From positions 1 through 52,690 of IMG/VR virus record IMGVR_UViG_3300031237_000006: a stretch of 52,690 nt of DNA, one strand, 5' to 3'. Positions 8,010-9,706 of the stretch are shown in pieces. Below the pieces are notes generated by a model. It had not been told where the DNA came from. It made no database searches and saw only the letters and a program-made list of their open reading frames with translations. Each line of letters starts with the position of its first letter. Position 1 is the first letter of the stretch. The stretch is from a virus. Position numbers and translations under genes: made by a program.

Positions 8010-8197
8010 TCATATTAGGGATTGGATTGATCTTCTTCACATGGATGATTGCTATTCCTCTTGGGAGAGCAGCGGCACAGTGGGAAGATCGAGCAGGGTA
8101 TGCAAATAAATTATTCACATGGCGGGCTTGGCTACTTATGGGAGTAGGTTTTGTTCCAGCTATTACTGGGGGTCTTCTTCTCATTTATTATCTATGA
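8006..8197 (+). CDS. 63-residue two-pass membrane protein
   Basis: Two hydrophobic helices (residues 2-22 and 41-62) with a short polar loop (AAAQWEDRAGYANK). ATGA junctions on both sides. More AT-rich than its neighbours. It sits between another membrane protein and the oxygenase, so this group may act at the cell envelope. Confidence 0.6.
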   Translation: MIILGIGLIFFTWMIAIPLGRAAAQWEDRAGYANKLFTWRAWLLMGVGFVPAITGGLLLIYYL

Positions 8198-8916
8198 CTA
8201 CAACCTACTGTACGGACCCCTTCGAGCACTGGGTTCTCGACGACTTCCTCCCACCTGACCAAGCCTGGCGAGCGTATGCCCATTTCTACGGGGGAGACGG
8301 CACGTGGACGCACCGGAATCACCTGTACTGCCGGAACAAGGAGACGCGGACTCATGGCCTTCATCCTGACGTGGAGCAGGTTCTTCAGGGACTCGAAGGC
8401 CAAGCTCTCCGGCACTACTTTTCTGTCCTGACAGGACTCCCCGAGCTAGAGGCTGACCCTGACCGCTTCGGCGGGGGACAGCATGTCATTCGACGGGATG
8501 GGTTTCTCGGGATACATGCCGACTTCACGCACCATCCGACGACAGGGATGCGTCGGGCGTTGAACGTACTGATCTACCTGAACGCGCACTGGAAGAAAGG
8601 TGACGGCGGGGAGCTAGAGTTGTGGGCACCGGATATGAGCCGGTGTGTGACGACGGTCGAGCCGTTGTTCAACCGAGCTGTAGTCTTCAAGACCGGGCTG
8701 AAGAGTTTTCATGGTCACCCGGAGCCGTTGCGGGCGGAGGAGCGACGGAGCTTGGCGGTGTATTACTACGTGCCCGTAATCAAGGAACAGGCGCCGCCTG
8801 CTACGCCCTACGCATGGATTGGTGGACCTATTCTCAAGACGACCGACTACCGCCCCCGGCCATGGGAGTACGGACTGAGGATGCGGCGGTGGCTAAGCAA
8901 GAGGATCAAGAGATGA
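8194..8916 (+). CDS. 2-oxoglutarate/Fe(II)-dependent oxygenase (prolyl-hydroxylase type)
   Basis: 240 residues from ATG 8194. The double-stranded beta-helix core shows GIHADF with iron ligands His108 and Asp110, a distal His173 in SFHGHPE, and the 2OG-binding Arg of RRSLAVYYY. GGELELW is typical of the family. Members hydroxylate protein side chains, sugars or small molecules. The genes downstream include a glycosyltransferase, so hydroxylation of a glycan or sugar carrier is a reasonable guess. A role in DNA base hypermodification is a less likely alternative. Confidence 0.8.
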   Translation: MTTTYCTDPFEHWVLDDFLPPDQAWRAYAHFYGGDGTWTHRNHLYCRNKETRTHGLHPDVEQVLQGLEGQALRHYFSVLTGLPELEADPDRFGGGQHVIRRDGFLGIHADFTHHPTTGMRRALNVLIYLNAHWKKGDGGELELWAPDMSRCVTTVEPLFNRAVVFKTGLKSFHGHPEPLRAEERRSLAVYYYVPVIKEQAPPATPYAWIGGPILKTTDYRPRPWEYGLRMRRWLSKRIKR

Positions 8917-9051: not shown

Positions 9052-9210
9052 ATGGTATCCCGTTCTCCGCTATCTCGGGCCGGTGATCGAGTGGGGTATA
9101 CGCTGCTCGTGGTGGCTGCTTTGGTCATGGCGTGGACAGGATGGATGCTGTACCGCGTGTATGAGCGGCAGGGGATGATTCTTTACGTGCTTAACGGGGG
9201 GTGTCTATGA
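9052..9210 (+). CDS. 52-residue single-pass membrane protein
   Basis: ATG 9052 is preceded by GGAGG at a good distance. One transmembrane helix (TLLVVAALVMAWTGWMLYRV), then a short polar tail. The stop overlaps the next start (ATGA). It continues the run of tiny membrane genes around the oxygenase. Confidence 0.55.
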   Translation: MVSRSPLSRAGDRVGYTLLVVAALVMAWTGWMLYRVYERQGMILYVLNGGCL

Positions 9211-9590
9211 GATATACGATTGCTGATTTTCAAGCATGTATCGAGAAGGTGAATCTTCCTTCTCCTATCAAAACTGTCTGGAAAGCGTGGGGACGTGGGC
9301 CTGGAGGGGCTAGGGGGCTTGGTTCGTGGGAAGGTGGATTTCTCTGTACGCTCCAGGATGGAAGCGATGTTTATATCGTCGGGAGCTGTGACTACACCGG
9401 CTGGGGCTGACAGGATGAAGCACAGATTATCCCCGTGCGGGATCGTTATAAATTCAAGTGTTCACGCAGTAAGGACTCACATTACGATAGTTATGATGAA
9501 GACTTTAAAAGTCATGTAGAGGACGAAGAGATCGACAGCGAGCCGATTGATCTCAATAACTGGATCAAATGGGGATGCCCAGAACCATGA
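9207..9590 (+). pseudogene. Phage protein with in-frame TGA at 9408-9410 (DYTGW motif family)
   Basis: The first part, ATG 9207 to TGA 9408-9410, encodes 67 residues ending GSCDYTGWG. The same frame continues from 9411 for 59 good codons to a TGA that overlaps the next start as ATGA. I recall a phage family in which this motif reads CDYTGWDCQ, so the TGA falls where a cysteine is expected and is followed by Gln. Elsewhere in the window TGA is clearly used as a stop. Options are a recent nonsense mutation, stop readthrough (UGA followed by C), or selenocysteine. A small hairpin, ATCCC/GGGAT, lies 19-33 bases after the TGA. Confidence 0.6.
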
Positions 9591-9706
9591 TCCTCGGCAC
9601 CCTCCGGGTCTGCCCACGGTGTCAGCGGCATGTCTATCCGTATCCGACGTGGCGGCCTACGTGGTGGGCATGTCCGCGCTGCGAAGCGGTCTGGGAGGAT
9701 CTGTGA
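9587..9706 (+). CDS. 39-residue zinc-ribbon mini-protein
   Basis: MILGTLRVCPRC, a Tyr/Pro/Trp-rich bridge, then CPRCEAVWEDL: two CPRC knuckles spaced as in a minimal zinc ribbon. ATGA overlap upstream and TGATG overlap downstream. It probably binds nucleic acid or protein; no more can be said. Confidence 0.6.
   Translation: MILGTLRVCPRCQRHVYPYPTWRPTWWACPRCEAVWEDL

Follow-up and report, generated by a model that had tools for sequence, protein, structure and literature searches.

An undescribed family of phage proteins very probably has the second cysteine of its motif CDYTGWxC repeatedly swapped for a UGA-encoded selenocysteine, with the gene at 9207-9590 of the DNA analyzed here (the window, a 52,690-base virus contig that makes up a whole record) as a diverged member, a reading drawn from sequence comparison. 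Relatives from unrelated samples share the UGA at the Cys codon and a downstream hairpin is enriched among them, and a host-decoded selenoprotein is therefore the most likely explanation. Taken more broadly, there is a good chance that this is a widespread, unreported bacteriophage selenoprotein family relying on host Sec machinery, with several Cys/Sec exchanges and the window gene as an extra Sec lineage in a Cys subfamily. The UGA would be decoded by the host SelA, SelB and tRNA-Sec, a stem-loop some 16-23 nt past the UGA serving to recruit SelB, and the full-length product would have about 127 residues. Support for the window gene itself is weaker than for the family.

The window carries phage-type genes, including a primase/polymerase, an endonuclease VII, a portal, an amidase and a terminase-like gene. 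Translation of the frame reads MRYTIADF...GSCDYTGWG*QDEAQ...WGCPEP*, with 67 codons leading to a TGA (9408-9410), followed by 59 sense codons and a terminal TGA (9588-9590) that overlaps the ATG (9587-9589) of the next ORF. This bears out an earlier note on this DNA, which had described the in-frame TGA, the 59 further codons and the ATGA overlap. The TGA is the sole internal one of the frame and lies at the Cys position of the CDYTGWx[C]Q of homologues. The gene aligned in full with a Cys-protein subfamily, the C-terminal DxxPxDLNxWI included, and the half after the TGA was homologous to the Cys relatives end to end (DSEPIDLNNWI compared to DDEPADLNKWI in L063), so the open frame following the TGA is not a product of chance. 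TGA terminates 18 of the 37 called window ORFs longer than 150 aa, and the view of the same note that it is an ordinary stop here therefore stands. No tRNA or tmRNA genes were found in the window. The third-position G+C of 9207-9590 was 0.46-0.48 compared to 0.6-0.7 for most window genes, as if the gene had been recently acquired.

Table 1. Positions in the window of the CDYTGW-family gene, its elements and its neighbors.
Feature	Position	Strand	Remarks
CDYTGW-family gene	9207..9590	+	127 residues if UGA is selenocysteine; full-length alignment with Cys homologues, also past the TGA
Conserved motif C-D-Y-T-G-W-x-[Cys/UGA]	9387..9410	+	First Cys 9387-9389; C61-W66 and the Cys/Sec column invariant in 69 members
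Predicted selenocysteine codon, an in-frame UGA in place of the second Cys	9408..9410	+	TGA at the same codon in 12 other homologues; control codons without stops; no TAA/TAG
Candidate bacterial SECIS hairpin GAT-T-ATCCC(CGUGC)GGGAT-C-GUU	9425..9447	+	Loop 9434-9438, 23 nt past the UGA; agrees with bSECIS rules; p about 0.2 alone
Next small ORF	9587..9706	+	Begins with ATGA overlap on the readthrough stop
Neighbor, 2OG-Fe(II) oxygenase-like protein	8119..8916	+	PF13640, 6e-18; context only; about 300 bases upstream of the window gene

The window protein used as a query gave no significant match in phages, plasmids, IMG/VR or GTDB, a search for close phages via a neighboring window gene found no relatives, and it was the motif search alone that opened the family. 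A DNA pattern for CDYTGWx[TGN]Q run on IMG/VR identified 71 contigs, in which the second Cys was encoded by TGC/TGT in 61, TGA in 10 and TGG in none. The motif CDYTGWDCQ that the earlier note had given, with the stop replacing Cys, is thus real (61 Cys contigs), and the check it had proposed, whether phages related to this one share the TGA, was positive, with TGA at the window's codon in 12 other homologues from IMG/VR and bacterial MAG contigs. At all 10 TGA loci of IMG/VR the homologous frame goes on past the TGA, and the Cys homologues are all single continuous proteins across this position. The TGA form had four matches in GTDB, two of them in the family, one in a Ratteibacteria MAG (L073) and one in an Actinomycetes MAG (L076). 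A relaxed pattern (Gln free, second Cys free, W/S before CDYTGW) resulted in 25 homologous loci, consisting of 23 Cys and two TGA. TGA is a usual stop in the contigs of nearly all TGA loci. The family was found in none of the other genomes among the 99 searched around G012.

When stops were allowed at the first Cys, the Trp or the Gln of the motif, the pattern returned the same 61 Cys loci and nothing else, and TAA or TAG at the second Cys codon gave 0 matches. Freeing the Tyr-Thr codons produced 26 extra TGA matches, all without homology to the family and attributed to chance. The second Cys accounts for about one in five of the single-base paths to a stop at the four motif codons, and the chance of ten independent nonsense mutations all falling there is near 1e-7 by our own arithmetic, the TGAs being in fact non-independent through shared ancestry. 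An intact TGA-bearing gene inherited through shared ancestry is, however, itself evidence against nonsense mutation.

The 13 TGA rows require five changes on the best tree, at least three of them on well-supported branches, and the tree contains one TGA-only group of nine rows that is weakly supported. TGA members thus represent several lineages, with downstream sequence that has diverged yet is intact. Related TGA pairs differed mostly at third codon positions; after the TGA, dN was lower than dS in the three pairs with estimable dS, and third-position changes usually dominated elsewhere. The eight nearest relatives of the window gene all carry Cys and its branch is very long (2.52), making the TGA of the window a singleton.

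Bacterial SECIS (bSECIS) rules place a hairpin 16-37 nt downstream of the UGA whose loop has a G in its first two positions (PMC13188914). TGA members displayed a 6-7 bp hairpin whose loop (AGUU, GGU or GGC) starts at +23/+24. A hairpin with its loop at +23 to +25 was present in 9 of 13 TGA members compared to 2 of 56 Cys members (p = 6e-7), with search parameters set after inspection of the folds, so that such narrow-window p-values are somewhat optimistic. Against a null of redrawn synonymous codons the Fisher p was 5.7e-5 among TGA members and 0.93 among Cys members, a result with which whole-segment folding agreed at the family level. The Val codon was GTT in 8/8 TGA members compared to 8/28 Cys members, and the stem was preserved through changes of both partners (A-T/G-C and C-G/G-C; pairs read by eye). 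The loops of TGA members resemble the E. coli fdhF loop (GCAGGUCUGC) and the loop of the L076 MAG's own fdhA (GGCCGGUCUGGCC). Four loci (L023, L042, L058 and L073) fall outside a strict implementation of the bSECIS rules.

In the window, the ATCCC/GGGAT hairpin that the earlier note had seen 19-33 bases downstream was confirmed as ATCCC(CGTGC)GGGAT at 9429-9443 (+19 to +33 past the TGA), extending to GAT-T-ATCCC/GGGAT-C-GTT with a stem pair probability of 0.90-0.96. With a 5 bp upper stem, the loop CGUGC 23 nt from the UGA and an MFE of -9.1, it agrees with the bSECIS rules quoted in PMC13188914 and may function as a SECIS element. Taken alone, however, this hairpin was non-significant (p = 0.19-0.27, synonymous null), and 22% of window TGAs, including 8/43 gene-end TGAs, pass loose bSECIS rules, so it is chiefly membership of the family that supports the Sec reading of the window gene. 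An equally stable hairpin stands behind 8% of window TGAs. Most family loops (AGUU/GGU) are near the fdhF loop, whereas the CGUGC of the window differs from GGUCU; it resembles the loops of L046 (CGUGU) and, in one fold, L076 (CGUGG), a likeness noticed afterwards.

Selenocysteine now outranks a fresh nonsense mutation, the simplest account in the view of the earlier note, because the neighboring codons are stop-free, no TAA or TAG occurs at the codon and the hairpin is associated with TGA. For the window gene taken singly, the alternative is a nonsense mutation private to this phage, or a sequence error, that turned the TGC/TGT of a Cys gene into TGA with no link to the family's Sec members. 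This would require one base change and would fit the Cys of all its nearest relatives, its long branch and atypical codon-position G+C, and a hairpin that is non-significant alone. We nevertheless consider this unlikely, since the stop hits the one codon that is TGA in 12 homologues while the other tested motif codons are stop-free across 71 contigs, the downstream frame is intact and closes in a gene overlap, and the hairpin is of the form given in the published bSECIS rules.

Decoding of the UGA by other means has less to recommend it. A UGA with C as the next base counts as leaky, and that context, to which the earlier note had drawn attention, is present in the window; it carries little evidential weight, because the search pattern itself required TGACAR in the pattern-found TGA members. 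Together with the stem-loop that follows the UGA it would suit a programmed, selenium-free readthrough by a near-cognate tRNA (e.g., Trp) giving short and long forms, but such readthrough is very improbable given that the codon alternates with Cys only and never with TGG, that TAA and TAG never occur there, and that the loops obey the SECIS rule of a G in their first two positions and match those of the fdhF type. A split gene, in which the upstream part stops at the TGA and a separate peptide begins at a start codon of its own, GTG 9435, is hardly credible: the corresponding 51 aa ORF exists, but the Cys homologues are all continuous here and the conserved motif would be cut. Phages with reassigned TGA exist, and a changed code (TGA as Trp or Gly) thus has precedent; its probability here is nevertheless negligible, with many long ORFs ending in TGA in the window and at nearly all TGA loci, no suppressor tRNA in the window and Cys as the residue replaced.

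The host side of the selenocysteine reading is represented by L076. Its actinobacterial MAG encodes selA, selB and tRNA-Sec within 5 kb and a formate dehydrogenase (Fdh-alpha) that contains UGA, and the L076 contig appears prophage-like, with a tyrosine recombinase and phage-like ORFs (read by eye). In the Ratteibacteria MAG of L073, which may be incomplete or misbinned, SelA had no match, and neither SelB nor tRNA-Sec exceeded the cut-off. The phage records were searched for tRNA-Sec, SelB and SelD, with nothing over the cut-offs. The 81 kb virus record of L042 (G006) displayed several tRNA-like matches and an EF-Tu/SelB-like 408 aa ORF (C1:36317-37462), which is probably EF-Tu and possibly host DNA.

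The family matches nothing in Pfam, PHROG, NCBIfam or PDB apart from two weak matches, each isolated and confined to a single member, and a fold search of PDB and BFVD with the predicted structure (pLDDT 78, pTM 0.73) gave no convincing match. The neighbor genes of family members are mixed (DNA polymerase, RecT, methyltransferases) without a consistent partner, the assignable ones including DNA-metabolism genes. A second invariant Cys lies seven residues upstream of the Cys/Sec column (CX6C/U) and, because Sec swaps with Cys alongside it, the family protein is probably a redox or thiol-chemistry protein, in which the CX6U pair would be redox-active.

In having a UGA at a Cys position, Sec and Cys homologues and a downstream hairpin, the family resembles bacterial selenoproteins with an in-frame bSECIS (E. 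coli fdhF); unlike these, it is phage-carried, matches no known selenoprotein family and has no Sec genes of its own in the records tested. It is also comparable to GOS_B, GOS_C, DG, DW, DF and other uncharacterized selenoprotein families, which are hypothetical proteins (PMC13188914), as small proteins without annotated function found by Sec/Cys pairing, and none of the 69 members matched the NCBIfam models that define many of the uncharacterized families in that work. Neither phage nor virus is mentioned in a 2026 review of prokaryotic selenoproteins (PMC13188914), and the open-licence papers searched describe no selenoprotein family typical of bacteriophages, which makes the novelty provisional. 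Basilisk-like Bacillus phages, for which a tRNA-Sec gene was reported (PMC6145125), share a link between phage and selenocysteine; there it is a tRNA gene, whereas the CDYTGW family is a UGA-containing protein with no phage tRNA-Sec over the cut-off. If the selenocysteine reading is true, gene callers cut these phage proteins short at the key residue, the selenium metabolism of the host is a requirement for some phages, and the family offers a natural set of Sec and Cys forms for asking why a virus would choose Sec. Elsewhere in the window, 75 bases at 1379-1453 matched a hypothetical gene of Gordonia phages at 88-89% identity; the first 25 kb had no other near DNA match in the phage collection.
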